A stretch of DNA of 35,997 bases from a virus: positions 1 through 35,997 of the IMG/VR virus record IMGVR_UViG_3300020195_000094; one strand, 5' to 3'. The notes beneath the pieces were generated by a model, which was not told the DNA's origin, did no database searches, and worked only from the letters and a program-made list of their open reading frames with translations. Both the position numbers and the translations under genes were made by a program. Of the stretch, positions 1,440 through 35,966 are shown one piece after another. Within the stretch, counting starts at the first letter, position 1, and every line of letters starts with the position of its first letter.

Positions 1440-2047
1440 GCTGCGCCTTGCCGCACCGAGTCGGGATGATACCGGGCGATCAGAACACGGACCTGCTTGT
1501 CGATCCGACCCCGATCATCCCGAGCTCGGACAACCTCAGGGTGAGGGACAGTCCCCAACGCGGCTCGTAGCTCCCCACACGGCCGGCAGAGGACATCTTT
1601 GGGGTAACGGTCCATGTCAGCAAACGCGAACAGGCGTGCCCTCTGGTGTGCTACACACACCGGCTCACCAACCTCGACTTCTTCGGGGCTGTCTTTCCAT
1701 TCGGTCGAGTAGGCGCGTGCCATGCGTGCCAAACCACCGATGAGAGCGCCCAGGTTCATCGCTTTCGCGTCGAACTGTCTGTGGGCCTGGTCGAAGTGGG
1801 CGGGTTTGCCGCCCTTCAAGGCGCTGCGTGCTGTCGGGTCGGAATGGTCGCTACCTGGGATGCCGCCTGTACCGCCAGCGGAGAAGCCGTGCCCACCCCA
1901 ACGGTGGAGACGGTCACGTACCAGCATCCACCGGGGGATCGCTTTACCTGGTTCCCCTTCACGGTGGGGGGGGACGATCTGCTCTTCGAGGAAGTCGAGA
2001 TGTTCACGGACCGAGTTCAACAGGCGCGCGAACTGCTGATCCCTCAT
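1436..2047 (-). CDS. hypothetical protein with possible zinc-binding C-terminus
   Basis: This 203-residue soluble protein is not recognised. It starts MRDQQFARLLNSVREHLDFL, an amphipathic helical segment, then has a Gly/His-rich middle. Its C-terminal part contains CVAHQRAR and then LCRPCGELR, a spacing of Cys/His residues that could hold zinc. The ATG at 2047 was chosen over an upstream in-frame start because it overlaps the preceding stop as ATGA, the rule in this operon. Confidence 0.65.
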   Translation of the reverse strand: MRDQQFARLLNSVREHLDFLEEQIVPPHREGEPGKAIPRWMLVRDRLHRWGGHGFSAGGTGGIPGSDHSDPTARSALKGGKPAHFDQAHRQFDAKAMNLGALIGGLARMARAYSTEWKDSPEEVEVGEPVCVAHQRARLFAFADMDRYPKDVLCRPCGELRAALGTVPHPEVVRARDDRGRIDKQVRVLIARYHPDSVRQGAA

Positions 2048-2244
2048 AGTTGCCCCTTCTCTGAGTCGACCACCCACGCTTCGATTTCGTACTCCCTGGC
2101 GATTTGCCAGTACCCGTCTCCCCCTTCCCAGGGGCGGCCGCCGCTAACGGCTTGCGCCTTCTCTAACGTCGAGTACACGCCGTACACGCCGTACTGGTCG
2201 TAATCGTTCGGCATGAGCACAAACACTGTCGTCGGCTCAGCCAT
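2044..2244 (-). CDS. hypothetical small protein
   Basis: This 66-residue acidic protein begins MAEPTTVFVLMPNDYDQYGV. The pattern of hydrophobic residues, the phrase STLEKAQAVSGG and the C-terminal EYEIEAWVVD suggest a small alpha/beta protein. I do not recognise its family. It overlaps the preceding gene by 8 nt and the next by 4 nt. Confidence 0.65.
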   Translation of the reverse strand: MAEPTTVFVLMPNDYDQYGVYGVYSTLEKAQAVSGGRPWEGGDGYWQIAREYEIEAWVVDSEKGQL

Positions 2245-2443
2245 TAGCTGTCTCCTTGTTCTCAGACCCGGAACCGAACGGGTGCAACACCAGATTCCCC
2301 TGACCGTGCGTGTTCGGTGACCAGCCCATCGCCCGCACAGCGAAGACGGTCGGGGGACGGGCTGCCACCCTCAACGCACGGCCGAGCGTGCCAGTCCAAG
2401 GGTTGCTCGTCGGTGAGGAGAAGTCGCCTCTCACGGCGATCAC
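2237..2443 (-). CDS. micro-gene protein, paralogue of the 2745-2933 product
   Basis: This is a 68-residue protein of unknown role. From its fourth residue it closely matches the product of 2745-2933: both contain the blocks SNPWTG, LGRALRVAA, then MGWSPNTHGQGNLVLHPF. The duplication is also visible in the DNA (about 2275-2435 against 2774-2934). The GTG at 2443 is chosen because it overlaps the preceding stop as GTGA after the GAGGAGAAG ribosome-binding sequence; a second GTG at 2434 would align exactly with the start of the paralogue. No catalytic or metal-binding pattern is seen. Confidence 0.55.
   Translation of the reverse strand: MIAVRGDFSSPTSNPWTGTLGRALRVAARPPTVFAVRAMGWSPNTHGQGNLVLHPFGSGSENKETANG
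2275..2435. repeat. direct repeat copy 1 (pair with 2774-2934)
   Basis: About 160 bp that recur with high identity 499 bp to the right. They span nearly the whole coding region of two paralogous micro-genes. A different gene (2440-2748) sits between the two copies. Confidence 0.8.
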
Positions 2444-2748
2444 TTCTTCTCCTCGCGGGTGGCGGCGAGCACGGCAACAGCCGCATCGTCGGCTTGCGCG
2501 CAACGCACGAACACCTGCTCCATCGTCATCGACCACGGAGTCAGAGTCTCAGGATGGTTGGGCCACGGTGTCGCCAGCCGCGGCTTCACCACGACGACCG
2601 CCAGGAGCAGGTCGTGAAGTGCCGCCGATGCCGCGGCGAGGGCTTCTCGGAGACGGACAACCTCGGCGTCCGCGGCTTCTAGCCACTCTTTTGGGACCAG
2701 GACTACGCCTCGCAGCTTCTCTGCCGCAACGTCCGCCTCGTCGGTCAC
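2440..2748 (-). CDS. hypothetical coiled-coil protein
   Basis: This 102-residue protein begins MTDEADVAAEKLRGVVLVPK, then has a heptad-rich segment with VVRLREALAAASAALHDLL. The DNA encoding RLREAL is a 26-bp exact match to a segment of the gene at 3920-4120, and a near copy occurs in the gene at 5561-5953. The C-terminus ends AATREEKK; those GAG GAG AAG codons also serve as the ribosome-binding site of the next gene. The GTG start overlaps the previous stop as GTGA. The function is unknown; the helix could mediate oligomerisation. Confidence 0.6.
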   Translation of the reverse strand: MTDEADVAAEKLRGVVLVPKEWLEAADAEVVRLREALAAASAALHDLLLAVVVVKPRLATPWPNHPETLTPWSMTMEQVFVRCAQADDAAVAVLAATREEKK

Positions 2749-2933
2749 GGCTTCTCCTCGTCTGCGTGTCCTGCGAACGGGTGCAACACCAGATTCCCCT
2801 GACCGTGCGTGTTCGGTGACCAGCCCATCCCCCGCACAGCGAGGAACCGCGGGGGATGGGCTGCCACCCTCAACGCACGGCCGAGCCTTCCAGTCCAAGG
2901 GTTGCTCGTCGGGGAACAGAAATCGCCTCTCAC
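2745..2933 (-). CDS. micro-gene protein, paralogue of the 2237-2443 product
   Basis: This 62-residue protein of unknown role has a GTG start overlapping the upstream stop as GTGA. It shares the blocks SNPWTG, LGRALRVAA and MGWSPNTHGQGNLVLHPF with the paralogue at 2237-2443. It ends FAGHADEEKP, and its last codons supply the ribosome-binding site of the next gene. The DNA of this C-terminus is repeated, 27 bp identical, inside the gene at 3321-3923. Confidence 0.55.
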   Translation of the reverse strand: MRGDFCSPTSNPWTGRLGRALRVAAHPPRFLAVRGMGWSPNTHGQGNLVLHPFAGHADEEKP

Positions 2934-2934
2934 G
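2774..2934. repeat. direct repeat copy 2 (pair with 2275-2435)
   Basis: Second copy of the roughly 160-bp repeat, containing the start and most of the coding sequence of the 2745-2933 gene. Confidence 0.8.
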
Positions 2935-3196
2935 GCTTCTCCAGGCGCGACGTGCCCGTCGCGACCTTCGACCAGGCGCCGTCCTTCTTCTTCGAGACGC
3001 CGTACCAGTAGCCGCCGCCATTCCAGTGGATGCTGACGTTGCGAACGATGACGAGATCCCGCCCCATCATCGCCTCGTCACCCACCTGGAACGGCGCCTC
3101 CTCGATCTGCGCCGCACGCAGACGGTTCTCCGCCTCAGCGAGCTTCACCCTTGCGTCACCCACACGGGCCTTCAAGTCGTCCACGCGCTTACTCAC
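2930..3196 (-). CDS. hypothetical protein with N-terminal coiled coil
   Basis: This protein has 88 residues. Residues about 1-35 form a charged amphipathic helix (KRVDDLKARVGDARVKLAEA). A predicted beta-rich part follows, with DLVIVRNVSIHWNGGGYWYG, which resembles a small barrel, and then a basic KKKDGAWSK segment. It ends RLEKP. The GTG at 3196 overlaps the preceding stop as GTGA and follows AAGGAGAAGCC. The family is not recognised. Confidence 0.6.
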   Translation of the reverse strand: MSKRVDDLKARVGDARVKLAEAENRLRAAQIEEAPFQVGDEAMMGRDLVIVRNVSIHWNGGGYWYGVSKKKDGAWSKVATGTSRLEKP

Positions 3197-3324
3197 GGCT
3201 TCTCCTTGGGGATGACGGCCCCACAATCGACGCAGACGCCCGTAGAGACATCCCAGCAATGCCCGTCCCACCTTCCGCGACACAACCACACCCAAGCGCT
3301 CCGCAACCAACACCATGCACTCAC
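3193..3324 (-). CDS. very small Cys/Trp-rich protein, possible zinc knuckle
   Basis: A 43-residue protein, MSAWCWLRSAWVWLCRGRW followed by DGHCWDVSTGVCVDCGAVIP. The His-Cys and Cys-x2-Cys arrangement in the second half is a plausible minimal zinc site. GTG starts and GTGA overlaps on both sides, plus an AGGAG site before it, support translation. A competing frame is open over the same DNA but lacks the start and ribosome-site pattern. Confidence 0.45.
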   Translation of the reverse strand: MSAWCWLRSAWVWLCRGRWDGHCWDVSTGVCVDCGAVIPKEKP

Positions 3325-3923
3325 GGCTTCTCCTCCTCGCGGGTGGCGGCGGCGGGCGAGTAATGCACTCGGGCGCAACGCGGATTAGAGCAAGGGCAAG
3401 AGCCATGCTTCGCGAGCTCCCAACTGTGTCCAGAGCCGCACCAGCAAGTGCCGTTGCTCACGTCGTGACTGGCTCCACGGGGGCCACGGCTGCGTACAGG
3501 TCTGAGAATGTGCATTTCGGCTTCTCCTCGCAGGTGACTCCATGAAGCGGTCGAGGGCATCTCCTCGTCTGCGTGTCCTGCGAACGACCCGAGGTCCACC
3601 ACCCGACCAGCCGACGCATCAGCCACCCCACGCACCAGCGACGCGTTCTCTGGAACCGCGACCGTGACCACGGGCCGCACAGTAAAAACGGGGGCATGGA
3701 GATGCGCGTAACTGTCGTCGTCGTTGCCGACATACACCCATTCTTCGCCCTCAGGAATGCCCCACCCGACTTGGGTGAGTCCAATCGCTTCCAGAGCTGC
3801 CCGAGCGAGACGGAAAAAGTCGGGAGCGTAGTCAGGTATCCCAAACGCCATCGGGTCCTCGTCCTCCAAGTCGGAAAACGCGTTCCCGATTCGTTTTACG
3901 AGTTCTTCTGTGATGTCGCTCAC
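3321..3923 (-). CDS. hypothetical protein, probably a composite of several micro-genes
   Basis: This 200-residue frame starts MSDITEELVKRIGNAFSDLE. About residues 1-105 look like one soluble domain. Then comes FAGHADEEMP, which mirrors the C-terminus of the 2745-2933 product but without its stop codon. The last 46 residues contain CWCGSGH and CPCSNPRC, a likely zinc-binding module. A GTG at 3461 with a GTGA overlap to a stop in another frame could start that module as its own gene. Either this is a fusion of former small genes, or the true annotation is two genes. It ends AAATREEEKP, matching the end of the 2440-2748 product. Confidence 0.5.
   Translation of the reverse strand: MSDITEELVKRIGNAFSDLEDEDPMAFGIPDYAPDFFRLARAALEAIGLTQVGWGIPEGEEWVYVGNDDDSYAHLHAPVFTVRPVVTVAVPENASLVRGVADASAGRVVDLGSFAGHADEEMPSTASWSHLRGEAEMHILRPVRSRGPRGASHDVSNGTCWCGSGHSWELAKHGSCPCSNPRCARVHYSPAAATREEEKP
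3560..3586. repeat. 27-bp exact repeat of a gene-end module
   Basis: Identical to 2753-2779. There it encodes the end of a gene plus the ribosome-binding site of the next. Here it lies inside an open frame. Confidence 0.75.
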
Positions 3924-4120
3924 GACTTCTTCTCCTCTTCGATTTCTCGACGTGCGCCATCGAGGGCGGCTCGCAACCCAACATCGTGCTCCCACGGTCC
4001 TACACGCGCTGCGCGGTAGAGCGCGGCGAGGGCTTCTCGGAGACGGACGTTCTCCGCTGACAGTTGTTCGTTGAGATCCATCTCGTTCGCCCACTTGGCA
4101 GCGAGGTCGAAATCACTCAC
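3920..4120 (-). CDS. hypothetical coiled-coil protein
   Basis: This 66-residue protein, MSDFDLAAKWANEMDLNEQ onward, has the heptad block ENVRLREALAALYRAAR and a charged end (REIEEEKKS). The GTG at 4120 is preceded by a strong GGAGGAG, and a 35-nt gap separates it from the preceding gene, one of the few gaps in the operon. The RLREAL-coding DNA is duplicated in the genes at 2440-2748 and 5561-5953. The function is unknown. Confidence 0.6.
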   Translation of the reverse strand: MSDFDLAAKWANEMDLNEQLSAENVRLREALAALYRAARVGPWEHDVGLRAALDGARREIEEEKKS

Positions 4121-4154
4121 GGCTTCTCCTCCTCGGGCTTCCGAGTCTCCACAA

Positions 4155-4457
4155 TCACGCCGACCTCCGACGAGGCTGATACCCACGCGCACCCGCCGGC
4201 TCCGACCGCGACGGATTGCACGACTCGCACCGGTAGGCAGCCTCACCATCCCGTTTCGCTACCACCCGCACCCCCAACCGCACATCACCACCCACCGTCT
4301 GGTACGACTCGCCGACCATGACTTCCACCCACCCACTGTCCAAGCATTCGCGGCACGTATAGAACTTCGGGGTGGTCGGGACGCCACGGACGAGGCCGAG
4401 TTTCGCGAGGAGGTCACGCACTTCTGTCGGGTTCACCGAATACCGGGAACCGGTCAT
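4155..4457 (-). CDS. hypothetical zinc-ribbon-like protein
   Basis: This 100-residue protein begins MTGSRYSVNPTEVRDLLAKL, a short helical lead. The central part has CRECLDSGW and, about 40 residues on, CESCNPSR. Two Cys-x2-Cys knuckles at this spacing are typical of a four-cysteine zinc ribbon. It follows the replication-initiator-like gene with an ATGA overlap, so a helper role in replication is possible but unproven. Confidence 0.65.
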   Translation of the reverse strand: MTGSRYSVNPTEVRDLLAKLGLVRGVPTTPKFYTCRECLDSGWVEVMVGESYQTVGGDVRLGVRVVAKRDGEAAYRCESCNPSRSEPAGARGYQPRRRSA

Positions 4458-5170
4458 CGGACTGCCGCCCTCGGGGTGCGGGCCGTCTGATCATCCTGCG
4501 CCTTCAACATCCAGTTATCCCACGCCCGATCCCAATCCTGATATTTCGCACCCTTCGACTCGGCCCACGCCAAGAACCGATCTGTTTGGAGTCGCCAGTC
4601 GATGAGGGGGCATCGGTCTTCCACCCACGTTTGCATCCCGTCAGTGACACCCCAGCCGTCAGGACAAGGCACGGCGGTCTTGCGTTTGTCGTGCGGTCCT
4701 AGCGCGGGTGCGGCGACCGGCGAAGCTGGCGCCTCCCCCTCCATTCCCTTCCATTCCCCTTCCCCTTCAGGGCAGAGAGAATCGGGAGCCTCTCCGGAGG
4801 ATTTCGGGAGGACCACGGTAAGGGGGTGGAATGGCTCCGAAGGGTTCGGGAGTCGCGACGGGGACGGATGCGAAACCCTCTGATGTTCGGTGAAACCGGG
4901 GACGACGAGTAGCGACGCGTCACCCACCGTGTACCGGTACGCGAGGTCGGCACGTTCGAGCTCCGCTGCCCACGCGTCGATGACAGTCCCGTCAACGTCA
5001 TCGTCGGAACCGAACAGGACACCGGCAAGCCGTTTGGCGTTGTAGCGAAGCTTGCCTTCGTCATCGCATTCGGTGAGGAGCCCGAGGAAGAACAGGCGGG
5101 CATCGCGGGACACTTTCGCCACCTTCGGGTGTTCCCAATATTCGGGTTTGACGGTACGGATTCGGCTCAT
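4454..5170 (-). CDS. phage replication initiator / replisome organiser-like protein
   Basis: This 238-residue protein starts MSRIRTVKPEYWEHPKVAKV and continues DARLFFLGLLTECDDEGKL. That N-terminal pattern (arginine-rich start, KPE-W, DARLFF-GL, DDEG) is characteristic of phage replisome-organiser and DnaD-like initiators, which bind the origin through a winged-helix fold and recruit the host helicase. The middle (about 120-175) is low-complexity and acidic. The C-terminal 55 residues are Trp-rich (WRLQTDRFLAWAESKGAKY), as in helicase-loader tails. The ATG at 5170 overlaps the upstream stop as ATGA. No helicase gene is in the window, so host DnaB is the likely partner. Confidence 0.75.
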   Translation of the reverse strand: MSRIRTVKPEYWEHPKVAKVSRDARLFFLGLLTECDDEGKLRYNAKRLAGVLFGSDDDVDGTVIDAWAAELERADLAYRYTVGDASLLVVPGFTEHQRVSHPSPSRLPNPSEPFHPLTVVLPKSSGEAPDSLCPEGEGEWKGMEGEAPASPVAAPALGPHDKRKTAVPCPDGWGVTDGMQTWVEDRCPLIDWRLQTDRFLAWAESKGAKYQDWDRAWDNWMLKAQDDQTARTPRAAVR

Positions 5171-5560: not shown

Positions 5561-5953
5561 TCACAGCTTCGGCTCCGCTGGGGATAGCGGTGGAACGAAT
5601 GGCGTCGCAGCGGCGGCCCAAGCGGCGTCAGCCTTGGCAGCGGCGCTTCTCGCGCTCGCGGCCAACACGGAGCAGGCCGCATCCGTCGCCGCTCCCAGCC
5701 GTAACCAGCCGTAACCAGTCGTGTCCGCTCGGGAGCCGTTCAACGTGTCACAGAGTTCGGTGAGGGCTTCTCGGAGACGGACGTTCTCGGCCTCCGCTGC
5801 CAGTCGTGCTTTCTGCTCGATGAGGACTTCTTCCTCGACGATACGCAGCTTCCCCTCCGCTACTTCCAGCCCCCTCGACGCGCTCAAAAAAGGGGCAGAC
5901 GTGACGGTGCCGGCTTGTGCGACGTCCACGCGCTTGCTGCTCGGATCACCCAT
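5561..5953 (-). CDS. hypothetical coiled-coil protein
   Basis: This 130-residue protein has a long charged helix at about residues 30-70 (VEEEVLIEQKARLAAEAENV, then RLREALTELCDTL). It is followed by an Ala-rich helical C-terminus ending PPLSPAEPKL. It shares the RLREAL block at the DNA level with two other small genes of the operon. The ATG at 5953 overlaps the previous gene by 8 nt. It is probably an oligomerising protein; its role is unknown. Confidence 0.6.
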   Translation of the reverse strand: MGDPSSKRVDVAQAGTVTSAPFLSASRGLEVAEGKLRIVEEEVLIEQKARLAAEAENVRLREALTELCDTLNGSRADTTGYGWLRLGAATDAACSVLAASARSAAAKADAAWAAAATPFVPPLSPAEPKL

Positions 5954-6149
5954 CGTGCCGCTCCTCGGGACATCCCTCCACGATGCGGACGTAATAGCTG
6001 TCCATGTTCAGATTGATGTAGGCGCCCATCTCCACTCGGTCAGCCCTAGAGGCCGACATCGGTCCCATCCGTTTGACAACTTCGCCGCTCTCGAAGTTGA
6101 CGATCTCGACGTATGAAATGCTCAACGGCTTCTCCCCATTCGTGTTCAT
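5946..6149 (-). CDS. hypothetical small protein
   Basis: A 67-residue protein starting MNTNGEKPLSISYVEIVNFE and containing VVKRMGPMSASRADRVEMG and MDSYYVRIVEG. The strand-helix-strand character suggests a small alpha/beta fold. I recall similar short proteins in actinobacteriophages but cannot give a name or role. It directly follows the WhiB-like gene with an ATGA overlap. Confidence 0.7.
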   Translation of the reverse strand: MNTNGEKPLSISYVEIVNFESGEVVKRMGPMSASRADRVEMGAYINLNMDSYYVRIVEGCPEERHDG

Positions 6150-6364
6150 GCGACCCTCCGACGTTTCCGACGCAACCTGTCACGTTCAATCTCGTCCAAA
6201 CCGCCCCACACGCCGGCCGGTTCCCTCACTGTCATCGCATGTTCGAGACATTCGACGTTCACAGGGCAGGCCGCACACATCGTTCGGGCGGTGGTGCGGT
6301 AACCGTCGCTGTAAAACACGGCGATCGGTTCACCCGCACACTTGGCGTGTACCTGCCAGGTCAT
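6146..6364 (-). CDS. whiB: WhiB-family transcriptional regulator
   Basis: This 72-residue protein has the four cysteines of the WhiB family (C9, C30, C33, C39, in the order C-x20-C-x2-C-x5-C), which hold a 4Fe-4S cluster. It also has the GVWGG turn (51-55) and a strongly basic tail (RDRLRRKRRRVA) for DNA contact. WhiB proteins bind the primary sigma factor and occur almost only in actinobacteria and their phages, which is the best host indicator here. Phage copies can alter host division and septation genes or superinfection. The ATG at 6364 overlaps the upstream stop as ATGA. Confidence 0.92.
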   Translation of the reverse strand: MTWQVHAKCAGEPIAVFYSDGYRTTARTMCAACPVNVECLEHAMTVREPAGVWGGLDEIERDRLRRKRRRVA

Positions 6365-6675
6365 GCGGCACCTTCCGTCAATGGAAGCCTGAGGTCGGCG
6401 CGCCCGAGGTCGGCCCGGCATTGAGCGATACGCGCCTGATAGGTGGCGATGACCTGTTCGCTGAAGGCGATTTGACGTTCGATCAGCCGAGCGAGGACTT
6501 CTTCGTCGATGTGGACGGCCGCGCATCGCTTCGAGCAGAAATCGCCGACGTGATGGGCGCCTCGTACCCGACCGGCCGTTAGGACCGTCCCGCATTCGGC
6601 GCACGTCACGGGGTTGAGGACACCAGCCGTGTACCACTCGACGTACCGGTCGATCAGGTCGCGGGAGACGGTCAT
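6361..6675 (-). CDS. hypothetical zinc-finger protein
   Basis: This 104-residue protein has CAECGTVLTAG near residue 25 and DFCSKRCAAVH near residue 45. This two-knuckle treble-clef pattern resembles small nucleic-acid-binding fingers. The C-terminal half is a long helix (EVLARLIERQIAFSEQVIAT) that could dimerise. It lies between an exported transglycosylase gene and whiB, with ATGA overlaps on both sides. The function is unknown. Confidence 0.65.
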   Translation of the reverse strand: MTVSRDLIDRYVEWYTAGVLNPVTCAECGTVLTAGRVRGAHHVGDFCSKRCAAVHIDEEVLARLIERQIAFSEQVIATYQARIAQCRADLGRADLRLPLTEGAA

Positions 6676-31672: not shown

Positions 31673-32280
31673 TAGCCGAACACTGCCGGGCGGATCACGT
31701 AACGGCGGAGGAGCCGTTCGACGTCGCGGTCTTCGTACACGCGGATCGGCCCGAACGAATCGAACCCTGCGACACCCAACGCCGCGTTTCGGCGTTCCAA
31801 GTTCTTGTAGGCGAGGAGCAGGGTCGCTTGCGTGACAGGGGCGGGGACTGCCGCCCATCCCCACGCTGCCGTCACTTGCACCGTCGGCCGGTACCCCGTA
31901 GTGAACGTCCGAGTGCCAACCGCCCGGACTGTCGTCCACGGCCACCCTGCGAGACCTTCGACAACACCGTTGAACGGTTCGAGAACAAAATCGGTATCGA
32001 TAGTCCACGTCGTCTCATACGTGCCGTCATCATCGTCGTCGGACTTCACGACAAGGTTTGTAACGGACCAGAAATCGTCGACGTCGACCCGGACTGTCGA
32101 CTCTGGGCGGAACACCCTCGCCGCCACCGACCCGGTCGCGACCTTCGGGACGAACTCCCTATGACAATGGGAACGCACTTCGTCGTTCGCGGCGGCGACC
32201 GCCCACGCAATTTGGGAAGCGTCAGCAGTCGCAGGAAGCGTTCCCCACGTCGTGAGATCGGCGGAAGCGATGATCGTCAC
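31672..32280 (-). CDS. head-tail connector protein, gp6-like
   Basis: A 202-residue protein: MTIIASADLTTWGTLPATAD, SQIAWAVAAANDEVRSHCHR, then a beta-rich centre (VATGSVAARVFRPESTVRVD, DFWSVTNLVVKSDDD) and a C-terminal helical part (TQATLLLAYKNLERRNAALG, VYEDRDVERLLRRYVIRPAV). The N-terminal helices and the strand insert resemble gp6/gp15-like adaptors that sit under the portal. The GTG at 32280 overlaps the methyltransferase stop as GTGA and is preferred to 32298. Portal and capsid genes are not in the window. Confidence 0.75.
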   Translation of the reverse strand: MTIIASADLTTWGTLPATADASQIAWAVAAANDEVRSHCHREFVPKVATGSVAARVFRPESTVRVDVDDFWSVTNLVVKSDDDDDGTYETTWTIDTDFVLEPFNGVVEGLAGWPWTTVRAVGTRTFTTGYRPTVQVTAAWGWAAVPAPVTQATLLLAYKNLERRNAALGVAGFDSFGPIRVYEDRDVERLLRRYVIRPAVFG

Positions 32281-32807
32281 CGAATCTCCTTCCACCACAA
32301 GGACGCATCACGGTTCACCGAACCGAGCTGATCTACCGCCGCGTCCCACACCGGTGGGTGGTGGGCGTCGTCACCACTGATGATCCCGCCCGGCACCATC
32401 AGCGGGACCGCAGCAGCAATGTTGTCGGCCACTTCGTCGTACGTGTGGGTCGCGTCGATATGCAAAAACCGGATGGGGGTCCGGTCCCGTTCGAAATAGG
32501 ACCGCCAGTCCTCACGATGGACGGTCACGTTCCCGCGGGTGAGTTCAGCGACGTTCTGTTCGAACGTGACGTACACGTTACGGGACCGGGTAGTAGCAAG
32601 ATCACGCGAAATTTCGCCTGGCGACCCTGCCCACGTATCGACAGCTTGGACGTTGTACGGCCAGGCGGCGTTGATCAGATGGCATGTCGACCGGCCTTCC
32701 CAACAACCCACCTCGACGATACGACCATCGAGACGGCGGGTCCGGTTGAACAACTTGACCAACGCTCGCACCGACGCGTCTGAGAACCATTGCTCACGGA
32801 ACGTCAT
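32277..32807 (-). CDS. class I SAM-dependent methyltransferase (TylF/sugar-type candidate)
   Basis: This 176-residue protein, MTFREQWFSDASVRALVKLF, has the motif I glycine loop VEVGCWEGRSTCHL (about 31-44), an acidic strand end QAVDTWAGSPG, and the sequence RFLHIDATHTYDEVADNI, followed by PGGIISGDDAHHP. Asp and His residues in HIDATHTYDEV and GDDAH are typical of the TylF/cephalosporin-hydroxylase-like sugar methyltransferase group that use a metal. The ATG overlaps the other methyltransferase's stop (ATGA). It probably modifies sugars or proteins of the virion. Confidence 0.74.
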   Translation of the reverse strand: MTFREQWFSDASVRALVKLFNRTRRLDGRIVEVGCWEGRSTCHLINAAWPYNVQAVDTWAGSPGEISRDLATTRSRNVYVTFEQNVAELTRGNVTVHREDWRSYFERDRTPIRFLHIDATHTYDEVADNIAAAVPLMVPGGIISGDDAHHPPVWDAAVDQLGSVNRDASLWWKEIR

Positions 32808-33340
32808 GGGATGTACACGATCCCGAGACCCCAACAGTTCGGATGGTTCTCCCACCGCAACCCGTTGGCCTCACAAAACTCGTTGACGGCACGCTTCACC
32901 GGGAACAACGGACCGTCCGTCCCTTCCGGCATCGGCAATTCAGTGTCATGCAACACGATCCGGCCACCCGGCCGGACCAGCCGTGCGTACAACGACAATT
33001 CGACGGTCGTGTGCTTGTAGGCGTGGGACGTGTCAATGAACACGATGTCCACACCGGACGGCAGTTGAGCGAACACGTCGATGGTCGTGTCGTCACCGTG
33101 GATGAACGACCAATGGTCGTACTCACCGATCGGTGGTCGCTGATCAACGTCCACGGACCAGAGATGCCCACGACCCTCTAGGGCGTACAGCCAGGCGATA
33201 GTCGACACGCCCGTACGGGTGCCGAGCTCGATTACTTGGGTGGCGTCGAGGTCTTCGACCAACTGCACGAACGTGGGGAGGTGTTCGTAAATGTCGGACG
33301 GTTCGGCACACACACGGGTGTAGTCGTCGGTGAGGGTCAC
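32804..33340 (-). CDS. class I SAM-dependent methyltransferase, second copy type
   Basis: A 178-residue protein: MTLTDDYTRVCAEPSDIYEH, motif I VIELGTRTGVSTIAWL (36-51), LWSVDVDQRPPIGEYDHWSF, then VDIVFIDTSHAYKHTTVELS and PGGRIVLHDTE. The D-T-S-H-x-Y and HDTE pattern again points to the TylF-like group. A GTG start overlaps the preceding GT17 stop as GTGA. It differs from the neighbouring methyltransferase but has the same fold, so these may be ancient paralogues with distinct targets. Confidence 0.76.
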   Translation of the reverse strand: MTLTDDYTRVCAEPSDIYEHLPTFVQLVEDLDATQVIELGTRTGVSTIAWLYALEGRGHLWSVDVDQRPPIGEYDHWSFIHGDDTTIDVFAQLPSGVDIVFIDTSHAYKHTTVELSLYARLVRPGGRIVLHDTELPMPEGTDGPLFPVKRAVNEFCEANGLRWENHPNCWGLGIVYIP

Positions 33341-34089
33341 GGCCGGTACCAACTGTCGGGGGCGTGACCGTCCCTGATCCACACGGGCCACGATCCGTCT
33401 ACCACGACAGGGATGAGTTTCGACCCATCTACGTGCAGCCCAGTCTGGTAGCACTCGTCTAGACGTTCCCGCCATCCCATGTCAGCAATCTCGGGGTGGC
33501 AGAACGAATCCAACTTCTGTTCTGCTGCCTCACGTCCCCCCATCCAGGAAAGATGCCAACCAGCGGCAGGGAGAATGTTCGGCGCATACATGCGTGCGTT
33601 ACGCAACATAGCGAACGTGTCGATATCCGCCGCATAAGCGGCGACGGTCCCGTACCAGGGGACGGGATGCTGCCAGTCAACCGCGAAGCAATACAACTTC
33701 TGTTCGAAACGAACAATCCCACGCGGGCGGACCAGAGACGCGGCGAGCACGGTCGGAATCTCGTCCACATCACCGTGAAGGACGATGTCTTCCGGGCCGG
33801 CGTCGAGACGGCGGAGCCCTTCCCACACCCATTCTCGTTGTGCCAACTCGCGGGACCACGCATCAGGAATTGTGGGGAGGCCTGTTGCGTGAACGTTGAC
33901 GATCCGGTCAGCCCACGGAGCGAACCGGTCCATGTGGTCTTGGAGATGGAACGGCTTTGGGGTGTTGCCACCGTGGGTTACGTCAGCTTCGACAATCACC
34001 CAATAGTCGACTGCCGAGTCCATCTCGGTCAGTCTGCATTCGAGGATGTCGAACTCGTTGTTGAACGAGAACGTATCAATCCGTTTCAC
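33337..34089 (-). CDS. glycosyltransferase family 17-like
   Basis: This 250-residue protein begins MKRIDTFSFNNEFDILECRL. YWVIVEADVTHGGNTPKPFH (29-48) and the metal-binding DVDEIP (107-112) preceded by EDIVLHG match family GT17, the bacterial and eukaryotic N-acetylglucosaminyltransferases of the MGAT3 type. The later part VDWQHPVPWYGTVAAY and GWHLSWMGG fits as well. It should transfer a sugar from an activated donor to a glycan or protein. The GTG start overlaps the previous stop as GTGA. It lies between the GT4/GT2 fusion gene and two methyltransferase genes. Confidence 0.8.
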   Translation of the reverse strand: MKRIDTFSFNNEFDILECRLTEMDSAVDYWVIVEADVTHGGNTPKPFHLQDHMDRFAPWADRIVNVHATGLPTIPDAWSRELAQREWVWEGLRRLDAGPEDIVLHGDVDEIPTVLAASLVRPRGIVRFEQKLYCFAVDWQHPVPWYGTVAAYAADIDTFAMLRNARMYAPNILPAAGWHLSWMGGREAAEQKLDSFCHPEIADMGWRERLDECYQTGLHVDGSKLIPVVVDGSWPVWIRDGHAPDSWYRP

Positions 34090-35966
34090 GCTTCACGAAC
34101 CCGGCCGAGGCCCTGCACCTGCATCGCGACGAACGGGCGGCGACGCAACCACTCGGCCTCATCAGCCGAACGTTGCGACCAACCCTTCCGGTACACGTCG
34201 TCCGGCTCAGCGAGCCCCATATCTGGGTGGAGATGTTCCACCATCGACGCGAGGCACGGCGTGAACACCCTACGAGCCTTCGCGAGCTCGACCAGTTCGA
34301 CGTCCGAGTAGAAGTGGCCGTACCCCTCATGGAACACGCCGCCTTGCAACGAACCGCCATGCTCATCGACATACGAACGGCGGACGAAGAAATGGTCGGC
34401 GTGACTGCCGTTCGCCACCTTCGGGTTGCCTTGCCCAGTGAGCGAATCGTTCGTGCCGATCACATCGAACTCGTCGGACAAACCGCGGGCAGCGTCAATC
34501 CACCCCTTATGGAACCGGACGTCGTCACCAGCAACAAAAATCCACGGTTCTGACGTCTGCCCGAACGCCCAGTTGACTTTCTGGGCGTACGTCCCCGCCT
34601 TGTCGGCCGTGTAGACAATCACGTCGGCGCCGGCGTCTTTCACCGCGGCGATCTCGACGGGATCGTCAGCGTCGCACACGAAATACAGGTTCGCTACCCC
34701 ACGCCCCGACGCCGACCGGAACGAATCGACAAGCGGCTGCACGTTCTGAGGGCGGGACAACACCGGGACGATGACCGCCACCCCGTCACGCGACGGAATC
34801 TTCGGGCGGTCCAACTCGACCGGCTCGCCAGCCATCTCCGCGAGGAGCGGCTTCCAGTACCGGTCGAACACAAGGTCGGCGTCGTACTCGCGTGCCTTCC
34901 CGATCGCCGTGTCACGGTTGATTTCCGAACCGCGTTCTTCGTACGCCTGTTCCAACGCGTCGATGATGTGACGGACGTCAGCTTTCATGTACCAGGCTTG
35001 CAACGCCGGGTCCCAGTCACGTTCGCCACTCACTGTCCATCCCGCACCAACCAATTCGGGTTGGGCAGAAAACCGGGAGACGATGACTGGCGTACCACAC
35101 GCTTGCGCTTCGATCAGTGGGACACAGAACCCCTCCCCCCGTGAAGGGGCGAGAAGCACATCAGCAGCCGAATACGCGGTGGCGAGCTGTTCAGGGCTGA
35201 TGAACCCGCACCGGTAGGCGTACTGGTCACAAAACTTGAGTTGATGTTCCGCGATTCCAGACGCCATCGCCAACTCGATCAAGTTGATCCCATTCGCGTA
35301 CGGTCCCCACTGCTCCGAATGGACTAGCAGGACCGCGTCTGGGTGACGTTTCGCGAACTGGCCGAACGCTATGAACGCCTCAGGGAAACCCTTCCGTGAC
35401 GGGTACGCCCCCTTGTTCATCCCGTTGATCATCACGACGAACTGATCGTCAACGAATCCGGCGATCCGTTTCGCGTCGTCAACGGGAGCGAAAAGCGTCG
35501 TGTCGACGGCGAGGGGCACGTATTTCGGGTCGAGGCCCTTCTGGCGGAGGAGATGTTCCCCAAACCGGGACATCGCGACTGGTACCGCGTCTGTCCTAGC
35601 GAAAAACTCGGTGACCGCTACCGGGGCTGGTTCATGGTCGACAGGTGTCCACGCCGCAACGTTGAACTCGCGCAACGCCGGTGACGACAAGCCGAACACA
35701 TCCATGATTGGGATGATCCACCCACCCAACGGGTCACCGTTGAACCACCGGATTGCGTGGTCGTGGAGGACGTCGTTGCCGTACGCCTCCCCGGAACAGG
35801 GGAGGAGCGGAATGCCATCCCAGCTACCAAGCCCGGTTTGGTGGCCGTAGTAGACGGAGATCGCTACTTCGTGGCCTGCGTCCCGCAACCTTGATGCGAG
35901 AAGCGCAGTTTGGACGCCGTAACCCGTAGGGGTGTTCGGCCCGTTGGAGTGCAGCAGGAGACGCAC
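34086..35966 (-). CDS. bifunctional glycosyltransferase (GT4 domain plus GT2-like domain)
   Basis: A 626-residue protein. Residues 1-385 are a GT-B fold, family 4 type: N-terminal glycine-rich start (LLLHSNGPNTPTGYGVQTAL), then SRGEGFCVPLIEAQACGTPV with E278 and E286 as the E-x7-E motif. Residues about 394-626 are GT-A type, resembling GT2: VAVIVPVLSRPQNVQPLVDS, FVCDADDPVEI, WIFVAGDDVRFHKGWIDAA with the D-D/DxD-like metal site near 481-482, and FYSDVELVELA. Such fusions make two linkages in series. The GTG at 35966 is within the terminal palindrome, so the first codons may be altered if the end is an artefact. Confidence 0.8.
   Translation of the reverse strand: MRLLLHSNGPNTPTGYGVQTALLASRLRDAGHEVAISVYYGHQTGLGSWDGIPLLPCSGEAYGNDVLHDHAIRWFNGDPLGGWIIPIMDVFGLSSPALREFNVAAWTPVDHEPAPVAVTEFFARTDAVPVAMSRFGEHLLRQKGLDPKYVPLAVDTTLFAPVDDAKRIAGFVDDQFVVMINGMNKGAYPSRKGFPEAFIAFGQFAKRHPDAVLLVHSEQWGPYANGINLIELAMASGIAEHQLKFCDQYAYRCGFISPEQLATAYSAADVLLAPSRGEGFCVPLIEAQACGTPVIVSRFSAQPELVGAGWTVSGERDWDPALQAWYMKADVRHIIDALEQAYEERGSEINRDTAIGKAREYDADLVFDRYWKPLLAEMAGEPVELDRPKIPSRDGVAVIVPVLSRPQNVQPLVDSFRSASGRGVANLYFVCDADDPVEIAAVKDAGADVIVYTADKAGTYAQKVNWAFGQTSEPWIFVAGDDVRFHKGWIDAARGLSDEFDVIGTNDSLTGQGNPKVANGSHADHFFVRRSYVDEHGGSLQGGVFHEGYGHFYSDVELVELAKARRVFTPCLASMVEHLHPDMGLAEPDDVYRKGWSQRSADEAEWLRRRPFVAMQVQGLGRVREA

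Follow-up and report, generated by a model that had tools for sequence, protein, structure and literature searches.

Related Systems

A comparison of genes 67 and 68 of mycobacteriophage Island3 with Brujita revealed 60 bp that are common to 3′ gene ends, for which recombination was proposed (PMC3029335), and we confirmed these shared 3′ ends in the sequence. Here, we describe an array of small genes with repeated junctions in a stretch of viral DNA, namely, the IMG/VR virus record IMGVR_UViG_3300020195_000094 (35,997 bases, analyzed in full and hereafter called the window). The array is located at positions 2237-4120 on the minus strand. As in Island3, where this arrangement explains the gain or loss of one gene, neighboring small genes of the array share a stretch that runs from their C-terminal codons (hereafter tails) to the next start; such sharing between otherwise unrelated small genes was found for two pairs of tails, FAGHADEE and AATREE. 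However, the Island3 case involves one pair with a known relative, whereas in the window numerous junctions and several tails are involved, along with a common ribosome-site core, and no relative was found.

In cluster K mycobacteriophages, the start-associated sequences (SAS and ESAS), short repeats that include the ribosome-site core, are located just upstream of many small-gene starts (PMC3203893). The window likewise contains a repeat with a ribosome-site core immediately upstream of start codons in one orientation. The 13-bp SAS consensus GGGATAGGAGCCC has 12 exact matches in the stretch of phage Adephagia examined and none in the window when up to two mismatches are allowed. SAS is dispersed genome-wide, whereas the copies in the window all lie within 1.4 kb. 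Furthermore, SAS was proposed as a site rather than as a recombination linker, and shared coding tails are not described for it in the passages considered.

The promoter/stem-loop cassettes of T4-type phages (PeSLs; Arbiol 2010; Comeau 2014, as cited in PMC4503421) are, as outlined in the citing paper, regulatory elements that recur between small genes and bring about gene shuffling. By that outline, PeSLs are transcriptional elements found between genes, whereas the repeats in the window are translational and lie inside overlapping genes, with no room for a promoter or terminator. We found no sigma-70-like site in positions 2000-4500, with the caveat that actinophage promoters may differ, and the PeSL combination of promoter and stem-loop was not found there. 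The modules of phage genes can also be separated by short, conserved boundary sequences (refs 21, 22 of PMC3029335), which are comparable, judging from the citing paper, in that homology at gene edges provides foci of exchange; these are known between related genomes, whereas the homologies in the window are repeated within one genome. Each element of the array has a precedent in the Island3 3′ ends, SAS, or PeSL. The novelty lies in the way a single genome reuses one stop/start junction locally and in multiple copies, and in the recurrence of this junction in unrelated contigs.

Repeated Junctions in the Array

We found seven small open frames in positions 2237-4120, named A to F′ and counting the frame at 3321-3923 as one. 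The latter probably represents two genes, B and C, with the stop codon lost at their junction. Most of the array genes are connected by a 4-nt GTGA overlap, in which the upstream stop and the downstream start share bases. The original prediction, made from the letters of this DNA, was that seven small genes within 1.9 kb share pieces at their boundaries. The open reading frames and self-comparison bear this out and place all of the genes on the minus strand, which had not been stated. Our favored explanation, to which we assign a probability of about 60%, is that this array acquired, duplicated, and exchanged its micro-genes through short-homology recombination at translational junctions.

The 13-mer GGAGAAGCCGTGA spans five start codons at positions -9 to +4, all on the minus strand and within 1.4 kb. 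The copies are exact and are located before A (4117-4129), D (3321-3333), E (3193-3205), F (2930-2942), and G (2745-2757); no copy was found on either strand of the record beyond these five junctions. Only the starts at 4120 and 3324 have an exact copy of the full 16-mer GAGGAGAAGCCGTGAG, and GGAGAAGCCGTGAG with up to two mismatches was observed seven times vs. 0.33 expected. Variant junctions on the same strand precede B (GGAGAAGAAGTCGTGA, 3920-3935, for the start at 3923), C (GGAGAAGCCGAAATG, 3513-3527, for the start at 3515 and without a stop codon), and F′ (GGAGAAGAAGTGA, 2440-2452, for the start at 2443). The ribosome-site/start sequence had been predicted to double as the codons of an EEKP ending. 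Five frames do end in EKP, but the endings vary (EEEKP twice, EEKP, KEKP, and LEKP).

Outside the array, a stretch at 6120-6149 on the minus strand, directly behind a gene of the WhiB family, contains GGAGAAGCCGTTGAGC (6120-6135) after MNTNGEKP. Judged by its letters, GGAGAAGCCGTTGAGC is a possible outlying remnant of an array junction with one inserted base, which is now read through.

Shared Tails, Gene Bodies, and Coil Repeats

The FAGHADEE tail has one copy inside the open frame of B (3556-3586, minus strand) and one at the end of F (2749-2779, minus strand). The two copies are identical at 30 of 31 nt, with 27 nt exact, and the likeness extends 20 nt upstream of the ribosome site. The AATREE tails at the ends of C (AATREEEK, 3327-3351, minus strand) and G (AATREEKK, 2443-2467, minus strand) are identical at 24 of 25 nt, with 19 nt exact, and extend 13 nt upstream of the ribosome site. 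For the 4114/3318 pair, the flanking homology is only a few nucleotides. Exchange would be expected to leave flanking homology whose length differs from pair to pair in this way, and a fixed site would not. Both tails had been predicted to occur twice as gene ends, and this was correct for AATREE(E)K. FAGHADEE is also present twice, but its copy at 3556-3586 is not at a stop, and the frame continues (EEMPSTASW...) into the next gene. This site between B and C looks as if a junction had lost its stop/start.

The largest repeat, which the original prediction did not mention, is a 163-nt gene-body duplication with 92% identity between F (2774-2936, minus strand; GCC GTGAG ... CCGTTCG) and F′ (2275-2437, minus strand). 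The homology begins 3 nt before the start codon and stops at CCGTTCG. Past this point, F continues with FAGHADEEKP, the tail that is also found in B, and F′ continues with a different tail. The start region of F′ is itself composite and combines the G-tail junction with the F junction (..GAGAAGAAGTGATC|GCCGTGAGAGG..). In other words, B and F have the same tail and different bodies, while F and F′ have the same body and different tails. A block composed of FAGHADEE, a gene, and AATREE, also unmentioned before, is present twice with a different gene inside; one block encloses C and the other encloses G. Together, the B/F and F/F′ relationships and the tail-bracketed C and G form a pattern that would be left by exchange at tails and junctions, and not by duplication and divergence.

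Ordinary tandem gene duplication followed by divergence, with the shared tails as the last conserved remains of old paralogs, does have evidence in its favor. F and F′ are clear paralogs, a coil stretch is common to A, G, and the gene at 5561-5953, and in one of the other viral contigs with such junctions (L026, see below) the two upstream genes are alike as well (score 115). However, the likeness of B to F and of C to G is confined to the tail (96-97% DNA identity, with none upstream) and that of F to F′ is the reverse, which simple divergence cannot both give. We regard tandem duplication as an improbable explanation.

The coil stretch represents a third kind of repeat, VRLREAL, that is found within coiled-coil genes and likewise was not part of the original prediction. 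It is present on the minus strand in A (AENVRLREALAAL, 4018-4057; 90% identical to 5752-5791, with 27 nt exact to G), in G (2634-2676), and outside the array in the gene at 5561-5953 (5752-5800, with VRLREAL at 5758-5800). A Chi-like role was considered for GAGAAGCC, which has 11 minus-strand copies, 10 of them between 2.6 and 6.2 kb, and was rejected because the junctions account for most of these copies and a single coil repeat for three more.

Each copy of the F body holds a long and near-symmetrical hairpin (2801-2882 and 2302-2383, minus strand), with a 10-bp outer stem, a 4 × 4 internal loop, and an inner stem of about 20 bp. The fold z-scores are -4.7 and -2.35, and a comparison of the hairpin with Rfam gave no match. 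The hairpin could be a structured element that overlaps or replaces a gene. As an explanation of the F/F′ repeat, however, an RNA element was rejected despite the strong fold, given the lack of an Rfam match and the ratio of nonsynonymous to synonymous differences (pN/pS), which is lowest (0.53) in the annotated frame. Our working view therefore remains that F and F′ are coding.

Controls for Chance and Constraint

The repetition in the array is real and was confirmed with several controls. In a self-BLAST of the whole window, all significant spaced direct repeats lie in the array or have a copy there (one coil copy is at 5.75 kb). Codons were shuffled within genes except for the start codon and the final five, such that ribosome sites and stop/start overlaps were kept. 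The longest exact repeat after shuffling was at most 21 nt in 2000 trials, compared with two exact repeats of 27 nt and another of 19 nt in the unshuffled DNA. A control set of 126 viral loci, retrieved by means of a neutral 15-mer or in other ways, covers 1.15 Mb and 2357 mechanically found junction candidates, and none of these loci has two junctions that share an identical 13-mer. Under a looser definition (any start with a ribosome-site core), 12 of the 126 have two or more. This looser test recovers SAS in Adephagia and is thus sensitive to a known case.

It may be asked whether the sequence likeness and the EKP ending are simply convergent, imposed by a ribosome site combined with a 4-nt overlap. 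A GGAG at the right distance and the TGA overlap do constrain part of the sequence. However, 4-nt stop/start overlaps that end in EKP account for 5 of 198 in the window and 0 of 4410 in the control loci, many of the latter being mechanical overlaps rather than genes, so that these counts represent a background and not a census. Among the 47 control overlaps with GGAG at -9, none of the spacers listed has AAGCC before GTGA, which would read EKP. Because control overlaps lack EKP and the likeness passes the constrained bases, the ribosome site does not force the junction likeness; convergence is largely refuted and hardly credible.

Occurrence in Other Viral Contigs

A scan with GAGGAGAAGCCGTGAG matched 56 viral loci, compared with four matches for a shuffled-letter 16-mer, which was the one control of this kind. 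An identical 13-mer was found at two or more junctions in 10 of the 56 loci, and in seven of these it is GGAGAAGCCGTGA. Among whole contigs with two or more copies of GGAGAAGCCGTGA, 10 of 11 examined (the window included) have all copies on one strand within 0.2-1.5 kb, and 22 control contigs contain none. As the contigs were picked by the motif, these numbers describe clustering and not frequency. Several contigs also have shared tails: 39 nt encoding ALAPPVQEKP in L045 (two full copies and a third of 22 nt), 32 nt encoding LSTTEEKP, present twice, in L006, 37 nt in L026, and 23 nt in L022. Within the stretches compared, no protein kinship was found among the motif contigs, and one had a weak match to the window.

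These clusters bear on the main rival explanation, in which the junction motif is a functional site under selection, similar to SAS, and a protein, an RNA, or a feature of the ribosome recognizes GGAGAAGCCGTGA, such that the likeness is no mark of recombination. The five exact copies at the same position relative to the start are consistent with such a site, as are the GGAGAAGCCGTGA clusters in nine other contigs without detectable mutual protein kinship and the precedent of SAS, which the same test recovers. A functional site accounts for the identical core and not for the variable flanks: it leaves unexplained the extra 13-20 nt of upstream identity in particular pairs, the swapped tail of F/F′, and the repeated block of tail, gene, and tail. 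Moreover, SAS is spread out in Adephagia (12 over 28 kb), and the window copies are closely packed. Although we consider a functional site unlikely as the sole explanation, it is compatible with junctions that also act as recombination linkers.

A broader proposal, which is tentative and in our view doubtful, is that junctions of the GGAGAAGCCGTGA type constitute a translational linker that recurs and propagates itself, and that micro-gene operons in many unrelated high-GC phages are assembled and rearranged by recombination at its copies. If this is true, the linker is gene tail, ribosome site, stop, and start at once, so nearly every exchange is translatable. The gain of tiny accessory genes by phages without operon breakage is usually ascribed to illegitimate recombination and selection. 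A repeated junction that guarantees a translatable product would represent a concrete route, open to testing, by which micro-genes are gained. Hot spots of gene turnover in unannotated phages could then be recognized by identical stop/start junctions that cluster locally.

Gene Turnover in Mae-JY02 and Mel-JY03

Phages, viral contigs, and genome contigs were searched at the DNA and protein levels for matches to the array genes, the flanking genes, and the replication-type, tape-measure, and ParB-like genes, and no usable relative of the array locus was found. The ParB-like gene has two relatives (L003 and L004), both without the motif. Since relatives of the locus were not found, whole-gene swaps at the window array are what we infer rather than observe.

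A match to L006 led to Mae-JY02 (PP395635) and Mel-JY03 (PP395636), which are annotated isolated phages deposited as complete genomes. The two are about 98% identical around the early region, and blocks of small genes differ between the conserved parts. At three places, the identity starts within about 3 nt of a start codon, namely, at the ATG of the MTTETDTDD gene, at the ATG of the MTLIDKAEAH gene, and just upstream of the 9494/12270 start. In addition, a 27-nt island of tail, ribosome site, and start is kept while the sequences on both sides differ. This pair, therefore, has breakpoints at gene boundaries between related genomes, as in boundary mosaicism. As in the window, the genes are small and overlap, here with turnover at start codons, and a tail/ribosome-site/start island is conserved; the phage lineage and the sequence of the island are different. 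Arrays of this kind thus do undergo gene turnover at translational junctions, albeit in a lineage other than that of the window. The original prediction had pointed to related genomes as the place to look for gain and loss at junctions; the comparison was run on this pair, with the result described.

The junction GCGAGGCCCGCGATGAC is present twice in Mae-JY02 (L185; 4579-4595 and 4871-4887), once at a gene start and once within the C-terminal codons of another gene. The latter resembles the lost B/C junction of the window. The repeat TGGAGGCCCGCGATGAGTGA in L026 is similar to GCGAGGCCCGCGATGAC. Mae-JY02 also has a 41-nt repeat (L185; 5751-5791 and 6529-6569) that encodes DAIAAIPARGVGV and is common to two otherwise different small genes, which by sequence appears to be an exchange of an internal piece.

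Exchange at Junctions as a Probable Mechanism

In the mechanism that we favor, the array would be a translationally coupled operon of accessory early micro-genes. The last codons of each gene would serve as the ribosome site of the next, with stop and start overlapping (GTGA), such that GAGGAGAAGCC-GTGAG would hold tail, ribosome site, and start in one short sequence. After an exchange between any two copies, the upstream gene would still stop and the downstream gene would still be translated; because one sequence serves as tail, ribosome site, and start, a recombinant junction would stay functional. The exchange may be an unequal crossing-over within the genome or may take place with another phage, and neighboring tail stretches, longer or shorter, would be carried along with the exchanged genes. 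The junctions would then act as portable linkers between which whole genes are copied, inserted, or replaced. We infer that homologous or single-strand-annealing recombination acted at the array and that selection for kept coupling filters its products.

The original prediction had proposed recombination at translational junctions. This is partly supported: it gives the best fit to the variable flanking homology, the F/F′ breakpoint, and the tail-bracketed genes, but some of the sharing is away from junctions, as the VRLREAL repeats and the 163-nt copy lie within genes. Several points weigh against the mechanism. Gene gain and loss at the array are unobserved, as no relative was found, and the lineage of Mae-JY02 and Mel-JY03 is a different one. 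Neither the coil repeats nor the whole of the F copy lie at junctions. Few of the repeats are long, and they do not polarize the events in direction or order. No recombinase was identified beyond the integrase. Finally, the record is a metagenomic assembly, in which short repeats can cause misjoins.

This last point raises the possibility of an assembly artifact, in which reads of several related phages were joined at short shared sequences. Besides the metagenomic origin, the window has a suspicious, foldback-like edge, a perfect 24-nt inverted repeat with an 11-nt loop located exactly at the contig end (35939-35997). However, sequence and context vary among the copies, the frames are open across the junctions, and turnover at start codons is also found in phages deposited as complete genomes. 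An artifact is, therefore, very improbable.

Genes of the Array and Its Surroundings

All array genes are encoded on the minus strand. Gene A (3920-4120; 66 aa), recognized by its open reading frame and translation, is coiled-coil-like and has the C-terminus EEEKKS; it overlaps a frame at 4117-4230 by GTGA. Gene B (3516-3923) has about 135 aa up to the next start and holds the FAGHADEE tail with its stop lost, such that its frame continues into C (3321-3923, 200 aa). Gene C (3321-3515; 64 aa) is Cys-rich (CWCGSG..CPC) and ends in AATREEEKP. It has its own ATG preceded by GAGGAGAAGCCGAA, the codon usage is not in favor of the frame, and a weak match to SEC-C (E 0.084) is under the cut-off. Gene D (3193-3324; 43 aa) ends in PKEKP, and gene E (2930-3196; 88 aa), which has the best codon score of the array, ends in RLEKP. 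Gene F (2745-2933; 62 aa; C-terminus FAGHADEEKP) and gene F′ (2237-2443; 68 aa; tail GSGSENKETANG) are the paralogs described above. Between them, gene G (2440-2748; 102 aa) contains a coil (VRLREALAAAS) and ends in AATREEKK. The next gene downstream of the array, H (2044-2244, minus strand; 66 aa), has another ribosome site (AAGGAG). Codon statistics support most of the array frames, with weaker support for C, D, and F. None of the array genes could be assigned to a family with confidence in comparisons with Pfam and PHROGs.

The window is actinophage-like. Its early region includes a gene for a WhiB-family transcription factor (6146-6637, minus strand; Pfam E 1.5e-18), which is indicative of an actinobacterial host. 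The plus strand encodes a tyrosine integrase, which points to a temperate phage. The array is part of a run of minus-strand genes from about 14 kb down to 1.4 kb. At the other end of the window, two glycosyltransferase genes (GT17-like and group 1 GT) and two methyltransferase-looking genes (32277-35966, minus strand) adjoin the virion genes and may represent a glycan modification cassette.

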